64,000 nucleotides of DNA. Origin: Armatimonas rosea. GTDB lineage: Bacteria > Armatimonadota > Armatimonadia > Armatimonadales > Armatimonadaceae. Shown here one piece after another: positions 51,738 through 59,539 of the stretch. Positions within the stretch are counted from its first letter, which is position 1; each line of letters starts with the position of its first letter. The DNA lies in NCBI RefSeq assembly GCF_014202505.1, contig NZ_JACHGW010000001.1:620001-684000 (forward strand), read 5' to 3'. The notes below the pieces were generated by a model. That model ran no database searches, was not told the DNA's origin, and saw only the letters and a list, made by a program, of their open reading frames with translations. The position numbers and the translations under genes were made by a program.

Positions 51738-51809
51738 GGGCGAGTAGCTCAGCGGTAGAGCGCCTGTCTTACAAACAGGTGGTCGGGGGTTCAAATCCCT
51801 CCTCGCCCA
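51738..51809 (+). tRNA. tRNA-Val (anticodon TAC)
   Basis: 72 nt cloverleaf: acceptor GGGCGAG/CTCGCCC, anticodon stem CCTGT/ACAGG with loop CTTACAA (TAC), T-loop TTCAAAT. The 3' CCA is not encoded. Confidence 0.96.
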
Positions 51810-51842
51810 TTTGGTTGGAGGCGGTCGGTTTGTAGTGTTTGT

Positions 51843-51916
51843 GGAGGTGTAGCTCAGTCGGTTAGAGCGCTGCCCTGTCAAGGCAGAGGCCGCGGGTTCG
51901 AGCCCCGTCATCTCCG
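51843..51916 (+). tRNA. tRNA-Asp (anticodon GTC)
   Basis: 74 nt cloverleaf: acceptor GGAGGTG/CATCTCC, anticodon stem CTGCC/GGCAG with loop CTGTCAA (GTC). CCA not encoded. Confidence 0.96.
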
Positions 51917-51939
51917 TGTGTTTTCTCCAAAACACTTGT

Positions 51940-52013
51940 GGCCCGTTCGTCTAGGGGTCCAGGATGCCTGGTTCTCAGCCAGGAGATCAGGGGTTCGAAT
52001 CCCCTACGGGCTA
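51940..52013 (+). tRNA. tRNA-Glu (anticodon CTC)
   Basis: 74 nt cloverleaf: acceptor GGCCCGT/ACGGGCT, anticodon stem CCTGG/CCAGG with loop TTCTCAG (CTC), T-arm GGGGTTCGAATCCCC. CCA not encoded. Confidence 0.95.
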
Positions 52014-52014
52014 T

Positions 52015-52048
52015 AAGCCTCCGTATCCTGCGGAGGCTTTATTTTTTT
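52015..52048 (+). terminator. Rho-independent terminator of the tRNA cluster
   Basis: AAGCCTCCG, 7-nt loop, CGGAGGCTT, then a run of seven Ts. Confidence 0.92.
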
Positions 52049-52096
52049 CTCCACTCTCCCCCCCTTTGGTTTGTCTCTGTGTGGTACTCTCAGGCT

Positions 52097-52654
52097 ATGA
52101 AGACACTCTGTATTGGGGGGGCTACTCTGGCCGCGCTCACGTTTTTTTCGACCACGGTCTGGGCGCAGGTGACTCCTGCTCCGGCTCAGATGCCTGCTTT
52201 CGCACAGTTTACGGCGCAGAAGCAGGGCAAGATCAAGGGCGAGGTACTCCAGAAGGGCCGTGAGGAGCAGATGCAGCTCTGGGGCTTTGAGTGGGAGATC
52301 GTGAGCCCGCGTGATCCAGCGTCGGGGGCGGCGACGGGCCGCGTGCAACATAAAGGGGTTCGGCTCTTGCGTAAGGTGGGAGCGGGCTCGGTGCAGCTCT
52401 TTCAGGCGCTTGTCACCAATGAGAACTTTACGGTGGTGCAGCTGAGCTTTTTCGGGGCACCGTCTAAGGGGAGCGGAGCTGAGGCGATGCTGCAGAGCAT
52501 CACTCTCAACAATGCTAGCCTGGCGAGCTACCGACAGTTTGAGCAGCCCGGTGTGGGGTTGATGGAGGAGCTGGTGCTGACGTATCAGAAGCTCACGATC
52601 ACCAACCCGGAGACCGGTGTCTCTAGTGCGACGGAGTCCTCGTCGCGTGTCTAG
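52097..52654 (+). CDS. Secreted Hcp-like protein
   Basis: A 185-aa protein with signal peptide (1-23, ending VWA). The mature part has the Hcp fold pattern: GKIKGEVLQKGREEQMQLWG, SGAATGRVQHKGVRLLRKVG, and LTYQKLTITNPETG. Hcp normally forms type VI secretion tubes and lacks a Sec signal, and no other type VI gene is here, so this is an orphan, exported Hcp-fold protein of unknown role. TACTCT lies 6 nt upstream of the ATG. Its stop abuts that of the GH172 gene. Confidence 0.75.
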   Translation: MKTLCIGGATLAALTFFSTTVWAQVTPAPAQMPAFAQFTAQKQGKIKGEVLQKGREEQMQLWGFEWEIVSPRDPASGAATGRVQHKGVRLLRKVGAGSVQLFQALVTNENFTVVQLSFFGAPSKGSGAEAMLQSITLNNASLASYRQFEQPGVGLMEELVLTYQKLTITNPETGVSSATESSSRV

Positions 52655-54524: not shown

Positions 54525-55169
54525 CTACTCCCAGCCGCTCTCCCAGTGGGGGCCTAGCGACGCCTTGAGCCGCTCGCGGTAGGCATCGGTCTTGACTTTG
54601 CAGCGCCAGGGGACGCCCTTGGACACTCCTTTGCAGACCACACCCTCCGCGACCCCGAACTTCCCCTTGCGGAGCTCATCGGTGAACTGCCCGGTGAGCT
54701 TGCCCCGGTAGACAATGCGCGGCGTGGGGAGGTGGCCAAAATCGCGGATGAAGTCCTCGGGGGCGACAAACGCCTCGCCGGGGAGGGTGAGGTCGAAGAA
54801 GACGAGGCGCTTGGGTTCGTCCGCGCGGTGCTGGCCGGCAAACGAACCTTCTCCCAGGAACTCACAAAACGCTGTGGCTTCGTTCGTGGGGTAGCCGTCG
54901 AGCACAGCGGCGAGGCCCTCGGCGAGGGTGGCTTGGAAGACTGCGGCTGCCTCAGCGAGCTCCGGGTGGGCCGCCACGAACTCCGTGATCCCGCGCTCGG
55001 TGAGGTTGAAGCGATCCCGGCGCGTCCCAAAGGCGTGCCAGCCAAACTCCCGCTCCCAGCAGAAGTGCAGGTTCGTGCCATCGAGCTTCTCAAAGGCAAT
55101 ACAGCGCTCGCCCAGCGGGGCTTTCTCACTGCCGGGCATCTTAGGGTAGTACAGCATACTGTAACTCAT
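54525..55169 (-). CDS. RNA ligase family protein B (ATP-dependent nucleotidyltransferase)
   Basis: A 214-aa covalent nucleotidyltransferase. Motif I FEKLDGTNLHF (predicted AMP-accepting K28), motif III-like CEFLGEGSF, IIIa FFDLTL (124-129), IV EGVVCKG (175-181) and V CKVKTD (190-195) are in order. It is a compact ligase core without a clear accessory domain. Expected to seal 3'-OH/5'-phosphate RNA ends. Its start lies about 29 nt inside the HD-Pnk gene; 55157 is an alternative start. Third gene of the repair operon. Confidence 0.85.
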   Translation of the reverse strand: MSYSMLYYPKMPGSEKAPLGERCIAFEKLDGTNLHFCWEREFGWHAFGTRRDRFNLTERGITEFVAAHPELAEAAAVFQATLAEGLAAVLDGYPTNEATAFCEFLGEGSFAGQHRADEPKRLVFFDLTLPGEAFVAPEDFIRDFGHLPTPRIVYRGKLTGQFTDELRKGKFGVAEGVVCKGVSKGVPWRCKVKTDAYRERLKASLGPHWESGWE

Positions 55170-56235
55170 GGGCTTCGATCGTCGTGGGCACCTCCCAGCG
55201 ATCGAGGTACTTGTGCAGCACGGCCTCCGGGACGGCGGCGGCGCGGTTTCGGTTCTGGGCGAAGAGCCGGGCGTGCGGGGCCTCGCGGTAGACAATCTTG
55301 ACGCGGAAGTTGTAGTCCGCCGCCAGCCCGAGTGGGCGGGCGCGCAGCTCATGGCGCAGGTTGGTGGCGTTCCAGACAAAGTCTTGCTTCTGGCGAAGAT
55401 ACACCCGTGCCCGCTCCAGCGCCGCCATGGCCACGGGCTCCTGCGGGTCGGTTGGGGCGATTCCGAGCTCTTTGCGGAGCACGTCCAGGCTGACCACGGG
55501 CAGGTGCGCGAGGTGTTGCTGGATGTACGTGTCCTTGCCGGAGCCCGGCAGGCCGCTCATGAGAACCAGCTCACCCTGGGTATCGTCGTAGGCGGTGTAG
55601 GTCTTGTCCCGGCCCGGCGTGCGGAAGTAGACCACGCGGCTGTGGGGCGACGGAAACGCGTAGGGAGCGTCCCCGATACCGAGTTCTTTGCAGAGCTCAC
55701 TAAACAGCCCGACTCGCACCAGGGCGTCTTCTGTGTTCGGCGCAACCCGGCCGCGCGTGTCGGCCTCCGCCAGCAGGGCTAGCCAGTCGCAACGGGCGGT
55801 CTGGGCGATGGTGAGGGCCGTCCGCTCGGGATCGTCGCTGTCGAGACAATAACCAGGCCGCATGTGCCAGCGCACCAGGGCACAGACCGCCTCGCGCTCG
55901 GCGAAGTCAAAACCCTGCTCCCAGAGAAGCCGCCGGGCGATATAGGCCCCGATCCGCGCGTGGCCGTTCGACGTGATCCTTCCGTTCTCTTCGTGCTTGG
56001 TGGTCGCGGGCTTGCCGCAGTCGTGGAGGAGCGCGGCGAGCCGGAGAACCCGCTGGGCAGGCGCGTCCAAGTCCGCAAAGCGCGGATCGGCCTCCAGCGC
56101 CTCGACCACCATGCGGGTGTGGGTTGCCACATCGCCCTCGCCATGATGCCGCGGGTCCTGCGGGCACACCGCCATCGCCTGCCACCAGGGAGCCGCCTCG
56201 ACACGCGGCCAGTCTATCCCATGAGCGCTTACCAT
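55141..56235 (-). CDS. HD-Pnk: bifunctional RNA end-healing enzyme
   Basis: A 364-aa fusion. Residues 20-190 form an HD phosphoesterase (H39 region, ALLHDCGKPATTKHEE with H71-D72, SNGHARIGA H92, RWHMRPG H124). Residues 222-350 form a P-loop polynucleotide kinase (LMSGLPGSGKDTYI, K234; SLDVLRKEL D251; VWNATNLRHE). The order matches Runella HD-Pnk, whose HD domain removes 2',3'-cyclic and 3' phosphates and whose kinase phosphorylates 5'-OH ends. Start at MVSAHGIDWP overlaps ligase A by 7 nt; it overlaps ligase B at its end. Confidence 0.9.
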   Translation of the reverse strand: MVSAHGIDWPRVEAAPWWQAMAVCPQDPRHHGEGDVATHTRMVVEALEADPRFADLDAPAQRVLRLAALLHDCGKPATTKHEENGRITSNGHARIGAYIARRLLWEQGFDFAEREAVCALVRWHMRPGYCLDSDDPERTALTIAQTARCDWLALLAEADTRGRVAPNTEDALVRVGLFSELCKELGIGDAPYAFPSPHSRVVYFRTPGRDKTYTAYDDTQGELVLMSGLPGSGKDTYIQQHLAHLPVVSLDVLRKELGIAPTDPQEPVAMAALERARVYLRQKQDFVWNATNLRHELRARPLGLAADYNFRVKIVYREAPHARLFAQNRNRAAAVPEAVLHKYLDRWEVPTTIEAHELQYAVLP

Positions 56236-56930
56236 AAATCCACCCCCTCGGCGAGCTGGTTGGGGACGAGCGGGCGGTCTTTCCAGTGCGTCCCCGAGTC
56301 CAGAATGGTCTGGAGAAACCCGGCGCGCACCCACTTGTAGCGGCCCTTGACCACGCCGTCCTCTTCCCACTTCAGATACAGCCCCTCACTGACCCCGCCA
56401 TCGGACTTGTACAGCGATGGCCCCACGAGCTTGGTGATGTCTTTGAGCTTGCTGAAGATGCCTTCCTTGAGCACGGGAACCGAGACCACGGGGCCACCGG
56501 CGAGCAGCGCGCGGCGGCGTGCCGTGGAGAGAAACGTGTTGGTCTGTGTATCCAGAATGTCGAACTCAAAGAAGTAGTGCGGGAGGCGGTCGTAGAACAC
56601 CGTGTGGCAGGCGTAGAGCCACTCGCCGTAGAGGATGTAGCGCGTTCCTAGTCGCTCCCAGAGCCAGCCCTGGTGGGTCTGGGCCCAGGGCTTGAGGAGG
56701 GCGAACTGCGCCTCGCCGGGGCCGCCGGTGAGGTAGTGCCCCCGGCACTGGAGCTGGAGCGTCCCGTTTTCGTCGAACGAGATCCCCGTGTTCGCGCCGT
56801 CGAGCTTCTCCTCCACCACGAGATACTTCTCCCGTAGCAAGACAAAGGGCAGCCGGTCCGGGTCGTCGCCTTTTTGCAGGCCACTGCCTTCCAGGTGCTG
56901 GGTTCGTGGGTATTTTCGTAGACCGTCCAT
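56229..56930 (-). CDS. RNA ligase family protein A (Rnl2-like)
   Basis: A 233-aa nucleotidyltransferase. Motif I VVEEKLDGANTGISF (predicted K42), III YGEWLY (101-106), IIIa FEFDI (121-125), IV EGLYLKWE (182-189) and V VKGRYKWVR (194-202) are all present, in the Rnl2 pattern. It differs clearly from ligase B in sequence, so the two ligases are not a recent duplication. First gene of the repair operon; preceded by a distant GAGGAG and TACGGT, and only 33 nt from the end of the 840-aa gene, with which it may be co-transcribed. Confidence 0.88.
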   Translation of the reverse strand: MDGLRKYPRTQHLEGSGLQKGDDPDRLPFVLLREKYLVVEEKLDGANTGISFDENGTLQLQCRGHYLTGGPGEAQFALLKPWAQTHQGWLWERLGTRYILYGEWLYACHTVFYDRLPHYFFEFDILDTQTNTFLSTARRRALLAGGPVVSVPVLKEGIFSKLKDITKLVGPSLYKSDGGVSEGLYLKWEEDGVVKGRYKWVRAGFLQTILDSGTHWKDRPLVPNQLAEGVDLW

Positions 56931-56963: not shown

Positions 56964-59486
56964 CTAAAGCGAGAGCTGGATCGCCTTAAAAACCCGTAGC
57001 GCCTCGTCGGTGGGGAGGGTGCGCAGGTCCAGCACCGCGCCGTCCCAGGGGAACACGCCCTTCTCTCGCACTTCCCCGTTCAGGAGCTCGGTCCACCAGG
57101 CAGTGACACTCTCTCGGGCGCGGCGTGAGCGCATGGTTTCGAGGAGGGGGTCGGGGTAGCTGTTGGCGAAGAGAACCTCCTTGGAGAAGCGCCGCGCCTG
57201 CTTGACATCATCGGCTTCGAAGGGAGCCTCCTCGCCTGAGTCACCGAAGCCCGGTACGCGGTAGGTGGGGAAGGGCTCGGGCCTCTCCCAGGTGCCGTAC
57301 CAGGAGTTGAGGAGCTGTGACTCTTGGCGGCCCTCGATCCACAGGGTCAGGCGGGGGTTGGCACTCTTGAGGGCTGAGAAAACCTCGGTGAGGAGCGCCT
57401 TATTGGCCGCGAAGCGCAGGGCGTTCCAGCGTGTGAAGGGGTCAGGAGGGGACGCGGGGGCAGGGGCGTCAGGACTAGGGCGACGGACCATCATTCCCAT
57501 CGACATCGGGCGTCGTAGCTCGCCGCTCTCGCCGCGACCGGTGAGGTCGATGGGATCGTAGCCCTCGGAGCGCAGGAATGCCAGCCGCCGCTCGGGGGTG
57601 TAGCCGTACTCTTGCGCTGTAGTGCCACCAAAGCGATTCGCACGGGGGCTGATATAGCCGGGAGCAACGGTCTCGGCGAGCGCGAGGCCCGCCAGGCCGG
57701 GGAGGGATGCCAGGGTGCGCAGCAGAGGGAGCAGGGCGCGCCGGGTCTCAGGGGAGTCGGGGACACGGTAGAGGGCGGGCTTGTCGAACCAGTCCTGATC
57801 GGCGGGGGCACTGGAGGGGAGCTGGGAGAGCACCACCTGGGCGACAATGGGAATCCCGCGTTTCTTACCCTCCGCGAGCGCGGCCTTGAGCGGCTCCAGC
57901 CGAGCGCCGTCAGTGCTGATCCAGAGCTGGGCGAGCTTGGCCGCCGCCGCAGCCTCGACCACGCGCTGCGCCTCTGCGGGACTGGCTGGGGCAAAGACCG
58001 CGATCTGGGTGCTGAGCTTGGGGCGTGGCGGCGCAGGCGGGATCGTGTTTGGCTCGGCGGCCTGACGAGCCTGACGGAGGGCGTTATCAAGCTGAAAGCC
58101 ACTGAAGTCGTCGTTGTAGACCCCGAAGCCAGGCACCTCGAACGTGAGCAAGAGCTGCCGGGAGGCGATCTTGATCCGGCTGCTGTCTAGCGGGGGATTG
58201 ACAATCCCATTGATGCTAGAGCGACTCTGACCTGCTGCTTGCTCTTGGACTGTGCTCTGTATATTCTCTTTCAGTTGCTGCGCGATTGTCGGAGAGAGAC
58301 CGGAGAGGGGGACGACCGCATAGCCCCAGGTTTCTTTTTTCTGGGTCTCTTCGAGCTGCTTGAGGATACTGCTGTCGAGGCCATAGCTGTTGTCGTAGGG
58401 GATAGGGGAGGTTGGTTGGGCGGCTTTCAGGCGCTCGATCATCGCCTGACGCTGTGCCTCTTTGGGTTTTTCGGCCTCCTGTGCTGCCTTCTGCTGGCGT
58501 GCGATCCGAGGAGCCAGCCCCTCGATATCGTCGGTGAGGACCCACGCGCGGCTTTTTCCGGGCACATCGATGAGGCGGAAGGCTCCCGTCACACTCAGCG
58601 CCAGCAGCTCCAGCACCTCTCCGACTGCGGCACTCTGGCCAGGGGCTTGCTTGCTCCAGACCGGCTGCTCCCCTATCCGCTTGTCCGCGAGGAGCTCCAG
58701 ACCCGTTGCTTGTGAGGCACGCAGGAGGAGCTCGCCCACGGTCGTGGCACCTTCGAGCGGGATGCGCCGGGTGAGGCTGGGGTTTTTGTAGTCGAGCTGC
58801 GAGGGCTTGAGCTGGTTGGGAACCCCGCCACTGTCTCGTCCATTGGCGTTCCTCGGATTCGGGAAGCCACGTGTGAGCTGTGGCCGGGTGTCGCCGCTGA
58901 TGCCCCTCCCACCGAAGGTCCCTCCCCCGCCCTGGTTGAGCTTTTCGTCCTGGTAGACATAGCTAAAGGAGATCCCACGTTTGAGCTGGAGGCTACCCTG
59001 CGCGATAGCCTCGGCTGGAACCGGAGCGGCCTGCGGGTTGCGGGTTGTCGCAAGGATGGGCGGGAGGAGCGCTCGGACAAAGCCTTGCTGTGTGGTGCTC
59101 AGGTCGCGTGCACGGAGCCCCGACTGCCCACAGAGGAGCTGCCACTGGCGCGGATCGAGCGAGGCCGCGAGGGCAAGCAGGGCATCTTGCGGCGAGAGCT
59201 GCTGTGTCTGTGGGGGATTCAGGGGCCAGTAGAACTCAGGGACGAGAGCGCTCAGCCCGGTGGTGTGGACAAGGCGGCGCTTGAGCTTTGTGGCGAGCTC
59301 CAAAACATTGACTTCGGTGGCTCCTGGGGAAGCAAAGAGGCTTGGCCCCATCCGCGAGCCGGGGCCGGTTTGAATGATGCGCTCCGGCCCGACAATCAGC
59401 AGGGGGCCGCGCTCGGTGGGAGTCCAGGCGATGCGCTCAAGCAGTGCCTGGGTGGCGGGACGAAGAGTCGGTGGTTGGCGAAACAT
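56964..59486 (-). CDS. 840-aa multidomain protein of unknown function
   Basis: No signal peptide from the ATG at 59486, which has GAGGAGG about 9 nt upstream. The N-terminal 250 residues and a middle region with a Gln/Lys/Glu-rich helical stretch (ARQQKAAQEAEKPKEAQRQA) are not recognised. The C-terminal 350 residues (KLAQLWISTDGARLEPLKAA; RRLAFLRSEGYDPIDLTG) look like a TIM-barrel, possibly glycosidase-like. Upstream of and same strand as the RNA-repair operon. Confidence 0.6.
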   Translation of the reverse strand: MFRQPPTLRPATQALLERIAWTPTERGPLLIVGPERIIQTGPGSRMGPSLFASPGATEVNVLELATKLKRRLVHTTGLSALVPEFYWPLNPPQTQQLSPQDALLALAASLDPRQWQLLCGQSGLRARDLSTTQQGFVRALLPPILATTRNPQAAPVPAEAIAQGSLQLKRGISFSYVYQDEKLNQGGGGTFGGRGISGDTRPQLTRGFPNPRNANGRDSGGVPNQLKPSQLDYKNPSLTRRIPLEGATTVGELLLRASQATGLELLADKRIGEQPVWSKQAPGQSAAVGEVLELLALSVTGAFRLIDVPGKSRAWVLTDDIEGLAPRIARQQKAAQEAEKPKEAQRQAMIERLKAAQPTSPIPYDNSYGLDSSILKQLEETQKKETWGYAVVPLSGLSPTIAQQLKENIQSTVQEQAAGQSRSSINGIVNPPLDSSRIKIASRQLLLTFEVPGFGVYNDDFSGFQLDNALRQARQAAEPNTIPPAPPRPKLSTQIAVFAPASPAEAQRVVEAAAAAKLAQLWISTDGARLEPLKAALAEGKKRGIPIVAQVVLSQLPSSAPADQDWFDKPALYRVPDSPETRRALLPLLRTLASLPGLAGLALAETVAPGYISPRANRFGGTTAQEYGYTPERRLAFLRSEGYDPIDLTGRGESGELRRPMSMGMMVRRPSPDAPAPASPPDPFTRWNALRFAANKALLTEVFSALKSANPRLTLWIEGRQESQLLNSWYGTWERPEPFPTYRVPGFGDSGEEAPFEADDVKQARRFSKEVLFANSYPDPLLETMRSRRARESVTAWWTELLNGEVREKGVFPWDGAVLDLRTLPTDEALRVFKAIQLSL

Positions 59487-59539
59487 AGGTAAAACCCTCC
59501 TCAGGGCATAGGATACCAAAAAAGCGCTTCGCCATGCGC

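Follow-up and report, generated by a model that had tools for sequence, protein, structure and literature searches.

It is not obvious why a cell or a phage should maintain several RNA ligases, and a short operon of Armatimonas rosea offers a compact bacterial case in point. Within the window (the whole stretch of 64,000 nt that was analyzed), a gene for an HD-Pnk, a predicted RNA end-healing enzyme, is flanked by genes for two different RNA ligases, here called ligase A and ligase B (Table 1). An HD-Pnk with one neighboring ligase is already known, Runella being an example, and Deinococcus radiodurans is known to have two ligases near its HD-Pnk. What, then, might a second ligase contribute when it is built into the same operon, and where does it come from?

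Table 1. Coordinates of the RNA-repair genes, of nearby features in the window, and of related loci in other genomes and viral contigs.
Feature	Location	Strand	Description
Ligase A	56229..56930	−	233 aa; predicted minimal DRB0100-type ATP-dependent RNA ligase; K42 in EEKLDG
HD-Pnk	55141..56235	−	364 aa; predicted N-terminal HD phosphoesterase, C-terminal P-loop 5'-OH polynucleotide kinase
Ligase B	54525..55157	−	210 aa; predicted minimal phage-type RNA ligase; K24 (K28 counted from ATG 55169)
851-aa ORF	56964-59519	−	directly upstream of ligase A
tRNA genes (Val, Asp, Glu)	51738-52014		three in a row
Listed ORF	51938-52654		begins within the tRNA-Glu gene
Further ATP-dependent RNA ligases of the window genome	L045:5602-6627, L046:4181-5296		two genes, contigs C3 and C6
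Rnl2-type second ligase, sister genus	L041:3368-4423 (G008); L193/L042 (G002)		352 aa in G008; between ligase A and HD-Pnk
Solo B-type ligases	L059:5117-5761, L060:6358-7002		two other Armatimonadota genomes; no HD-Pnk beside them
RNA-repair island	G717:C1:280000-299500 (L194)		435-kb viral contig; Pnkp, Rnl1-type, B-type and A-type ligases, Thg1
Kinase and A-type ligase clusters	L195-L199		contigs G706, G707, G708, G710, G711

An earlier note on this DNA had described three overlapping minus-strand genes in which each ligase is translationally coupled to HD-Pnk. Both the arrangement and the coupling are borne out: the HD-Pnk ATG lies inside the end of the ligase A gene (7-nt overlap), the ligase B start lies inside the end of the HD-Pnk gene (17-nt overlap), and a second genome of the genus (G001) has the same order and overlaps, with protein identities of 91, 86, and 83% for ligase A, HD-Pnk, and ligase B, respectively. 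The ligase A lysine had been assigned correctly; for ligase B, the catalytic lysine in EKxDG stands, while its number and the gene start are revised. The upstream ATG at 55169 reads ACG in G001, and since the ATG at 55157 is conserved there, is preceded there by GGAG, and agrees with the starts of relatives, we take the shorter protein and K24 as correct. Ratios of dN/dS between the two genomes, which are rough because synonymous sites are near saturation, amount to 0.05–0.08 for ligase A, 0.06–0.12 for HD-Pnk, and 0.04–0.08 for ligase B. Such values indicate purifying selection on all three genes alike, argue that the arrangement is not a chance pattern of ORFs, and rule out that ligase B is a spurious ORF or a pseudogene; an assembly artefact is ruled out by the same arrangement in two separate genomes.

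As the flanking genes on both sides differ between the two genomes, the conserved unit consists of the three genes, none of which is a Hen1 methyltransferase according to Pfam. The 851-aa ORF, whose only Pfam match was a sub-threshold one to fvmX2, was considered as a further operon member and rejected: in the window genome it sits between ligase A and a divergent glycosyltransferase-like gene, and in G001 it is absent at that place, where ligase A adjoins the glycosyltransferase-like gene. A consensus scan for sigma-70-type promoters, which says little for Armatimonadota, found none.

HMM searches matched RNA_ligase to both flanking proteins, and both HD and AAA_33 to the middle one, in agreement with the phosphoesterase and P-loop kinase halves read earlier from the sequence. 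In the middle protein, the HD domain covers residues 48–128 (5.8e-10) and AAA_33 residues 223–350 (1e-24), and H39, H71-D72, H92, H124, D159, and the P-loop G231xGK234xT236 are invariant in seven relatives. Judged by this domain fusion and the retained metal-binding and P-loop residues, the gene encodes an HD-Pnk (33–45% identity to the plasmid HD-Pnk-like proteins H1-H20 and 28.8% to D. radiodurans DRB0098). Ligase A matches RNA_ligase (PF09414) with 125.7 bits (cut-off 27), keeps all catalytic motifs, and falls into one group of 16 rows in the tree with DRB0100 and other partner ligases of HD-Pnk (support 90/82). Its best plasmid relatives, from Pseudomonas aeruginosa, Variovorax, and Sphaerospermopsis (49–50% identity), adjoin HD-Pnk; a phmmer search of the PDB returned chance matches only. 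By these sequence comparisons, ligase A is an ordinary DRB0100-type partner of HD-Pnk.

Ligase B is far less conspicuous, with a PF09414 score of 28 bits, just above the cut-off of 27, and only chance matches in a phmmer search of the PDB. An AlphaFold2 model from a 25-sequence alignment reached a pLDDT of 93.2 (an earlier one from four sequences, with a pLDDT of 43, was discarded), and Foldseek matched it in the PDB to T4 Rnl2, the trypanosome RNA editing ligase 1 (REL1), and the Naegleria RNA ligase (NgrRnl), with E values of 1e-7 to 1e-5. The match to T4 Rnl2 (E 1.4e-7, probability 1.00) has a TM score by query length of only 0.5–0.6, and that to a phage RNA-ligase-domain protein in BFVD (E 7e-16) one of about 0.8. 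Motifs I, III, IIIa, IV, and V, assigned by eye, are present, and their residues (K28 in EKxDG, E103, D126, E175-G176, K191, and K193, counted from ATG 55169) are invariant in all 25 sequences. The nucleotidyltransferase fold on which the earlier two-ligase reading depended is thus predicted with confidence, and it places ligase B in the ATP-dependent RNA ligase superfamily. The protein ends after motif V, without the Rnl2 C-terminal domain (no T4_Rnl2_C match in Pfam); from the model, we describe it as Rnl2-like in fold and do not file it under the T4 Rnl2 family.

The two ligases show no significant pairwise similarity (BLAST E 0.13), and their family profiles match each other at a probability of 86, so we regard them as distant members of one superfamily. 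Ligase B and its relatives form a group of their own in the tree (99/98), a clade separate from that of ligase A. This separation, together with the BLAST result, rules out ligase B as a recent duplicate of ligase A. The earlier description of two divergent ligases around HD-Pnk therefore holds at the level of families. Both carry the catalytic motifs, and both are probably active.

How common is such an arrangement? HD-Pnk itself is rare, occurring in 5 of 291 Armatimonadota genomes and 3 of 395 in a Bacteroidota sample. It is also found in plasmids of Deinococcus, Pseudomonas, Variovorax, Bosea, a cyanobacterium, and others, and on viral contigs, where a single-protein scan gave no match and an alignment-based search was needed. 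We counted by hand 42 loci (distinct two-domain HD-Pnk loci plus the window, duplicates removed, one interrupted by an insertion sequence); an A-type ligase adjoins HD-Pnk in 25 of these and does not in the other 17. A second ligase was detected in the flanks at five, using models of known ligase types on the fetched flanks, a search that other divergent ligases could escape: it is B-type in the window and G001, Rnl2-type in two genomes of the sister genus (G008 and G002), and the Rnl5-type DRB0094 in D. radiodurans. Whole-record scans with PF09414 agree with this count. Most HD-Pnk loci thus have one neighboring ligase or none, and a second is not required.

In the sister genus, the order in G008 is ligase A, Rnl2-type ligase, HD-Pnk, and it is the same in G002, where the locus is split over two contigs. 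The Rnl2-type protein of G008 (PF09414, 78.5 bits; phmmer to an RNA editing ligase, 2e-14) is encoded by a gene overlapping that of ligase A, and in G002 the stop of its counterpart overlaps the HD-Pnk start. Another Armatimonadota family (G024) has ligase A and HD-Pnk without a second ligase. With ligase B in one genus and an unrelated Rnl2 type in its sister, a second ligase must have joined the A–HD-Pnk core at least twice. The neighborhood proposed earlier is therefore general in one part only: ligase A stands beside HD-Pnk at every Armatimonadota locus found, whereas ligase B does so only within the genus, which makes the exact A-Pnk-B order genus-specific. The window genome encodes four RNA ligases in total, the two outside the operon being DraRnl-like with a PHA02142 OB domain and of the T4 Rnl1 type.

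Relatives of ligase B point towards large phages. A single-protein scan of the viral contigs found no match, so that an alignment-based search was needed; relatives are present on 29 viral contigs, nine of them 266–513 kb long (viral status as given by IMG/VR), and, in independent records, in four huge uncultured phages of 485–642 kb (31–35% identity), with a weak match in Xanthomonas phage XacN1. None was found in 72,556 plasmids or in 296 Bacteroidota genomes, a set without a positive control, and of 291 Armatimonadota genomes four have one, namely the two with the operon and two in which the gene stands alone (G004 and G041). Inside the B clade, the operon pair branches beside phage and bacterial sequences at a weak deciding node (85/21). 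Because the relatives lie mostly on large viral contigs and in huge phages, ligase B was probably acquired from the RNA-repair kit of a large phage, a direction of transfer that we infer from this distribution.

Such kits can be seen on the viral contigs themselves. In the island of G717, the five genes listed in Table 1, from a T4-type Pnkp (AAA_33 + HAD_PNKP) to Thg1, fall within about 11 kb, with the B-type and A-type ligases adjacent. On five other contigs (G706, G707, G708, G710, and G711), kinase genes cluster with a ligase-like gene of ~415 aa of the Rnl1 type (PF09511 confirmed in G706 only) and with either one or two A-type ligases; on each contig, the B-type ligase is encoded away from this cluster. 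Since Thg1 acts on tRNA, the most natural supposition is that these islands repair tRNA. According to a 2021 survey, a given jumbo phage may combine RtcB, Rnl1, and Rnl2, which are probably not redundant (PMC7824862).

Comparison with known systems sets the operon apart in several respects. D. radiodurans likewise combines HD-Pnk and an A-type minimal ligase in one operon with a second, different RNA ligase nearby, but its DRB0100-DRB0099-DRB0098 order (ligase, macro-domain protein, HD-Pnk) has a macro-domain gene between the two, B-type ligases are absent, and the second ligase, DRB0094 (DraRnl, Rnl5), lies about 2 kb away on the opposite strand, uncoupled. At the one-ligase loci in Pseudomonas, Variovorax, Bosea, and cyanobacterial plasmids, in Bacteroidota, and on viral contigs, an A-type ligase adjoins HD-Pnk, often overlapping it; unlike the window, HD-Pnk loci of this kind have a single ligase or none nearby. 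In T4, the end-healing enzyme Pnkp is served by both Rnl1 and Rnl2. T4 and the large-phage islands resemble the window in joining an end-healing enzyme with several RNA ligases, and relatives of A and B occur on such contigs; their healing enzyme, however, is a kinase with a HAD phosphatase instead of an HD-Pnk, and they have no three-gene overlapping operon. The Pnkp1-Rnl-Hen1 system is similarly a compact set of RNA-repair genes, whose ligase is a separate protein translated together with the healing enzyme (PMC4411300); the operon described here has a second ligase instead of Hen1, and an HD phosphoesterase where that system has its phosphatase.

Taking these results together, we favor, as reasonably probable, one RNA-repair operon in which HD-Pnk heals RNA ends for sealing by two ligases that differ in the RNAs they prefer, ligase B probably being derived from phage. 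From the domains and motifs we infer that the HD domain would remove a 2',3'-cyclic phosphate or 3' phosphate and the kinase would phosphorylate the 5'-OH, leaving 3'-OH/5'-phosphate ends that both ATP-dependent ligases could seal, sharing the one healing enzyme. Ligase B would have been gained, probably from a large phage, and its translation linked to that of HD-Pnk in the genus ancestor. The two ligases would most likely serve different broken RNAs, for instance different tRNAs or break geometries, left by ribotoxins or by defence nucleases that target their own cell. Such a division of labor is plausible in view of the multi-ligase phage repair islands and the addition of a second ligase at least twice.

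The main rival treats A and B as components of a single ligase complex, one activating or positioning the other on HD-Pnk. Both are bare nucleotidyltransferase domains lacking an OB or C-terminal domain, all three genes are tightly coupled, and A-type and B-type ligases are adjacent in one large viral contig. The A-type DRB0100 was adenylated yet did not ligate alone (PMC1997131), which leaves room for a complex with an activating subunit; in a parallel case, Hen1 is thought to activate Rnl, and tRNA repair needed all of Pnkp1, Rnl, and Hen1 (PMC4411300). Against this, A and HD-Pnk occur without B at most loci, and two Armatimonadota genomes have relatives of B without HD-Pnk, so neither pairing is a necessity; moreover, both proteins keep all catalytic motifs, for which a subunit with a purely structural role would have no use. 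We consider a complex unlikely, though worth keeping in mind.

That ligase B is a redundant spare duplicating the activity of ligase A seems to us distinctly improbable: the two do carry the same catalytic motifs, and the genome has two further RNA ligases elsewhere, but B is under purifying selection between the two genus genomes, has diverged greatly from A, and finds a counterpart in the different second ligase that the sister genus added independently. We give even less weight, and only a very small probability, to repair of DNA instead of RNA. In its favor, DRB0100 used to carry a DNA-ligase annotation. Ionising radiation strongly induces the DRB0098-0100 operon, and DRB0098 can phosphorylate 5'-OH ends of DNA (PMC1997131, PMC1978522); in the same studies, however, DRB0100 showed no DNA ligation in vitro, and disrupting it did not impair radiation resistance. 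The family that both ligases match is RNA_ligase, the nearest solved folds to ligase B are RNA ligases, and relatives are encoded in phage islands alongside Thg1 and an Rnl1-type ligase.

Returning to the preferred reading of two ligases with different RNA preferences, we regard the following as new with moderate confidence: the coupled three-gene operon with two ligases, although a two-ligase HD-Pnk operon may have been described before; the presence of another type of second ligase in the sister genus; and the connection of the operon's second ligase with a minimal large-phage ligase family that is poorly covered by Pfam. For this family, barely recognized by family libraries, ligase B provides a gene context along with a predicted structure. 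The healing enzyme can be co-expressed with its two divergent ligases and these compared on the same cleaved RNAs, and the operon may bear on why the A-type DRB0100 appeared inactive when assayed without another ligase. More tentatively, and at somewhat less than even chances, HD-Pnk could be a shared end-healing hub to which bacteria repeatedly add a substrate-specific second ligase. In this operon, that ligase would have come from large phages, and an enzyme of phage counter-defence would now take part in repairing RNA damage in the host. What the operon suggests is a single healing enzyme able to work with several specialized ligases.
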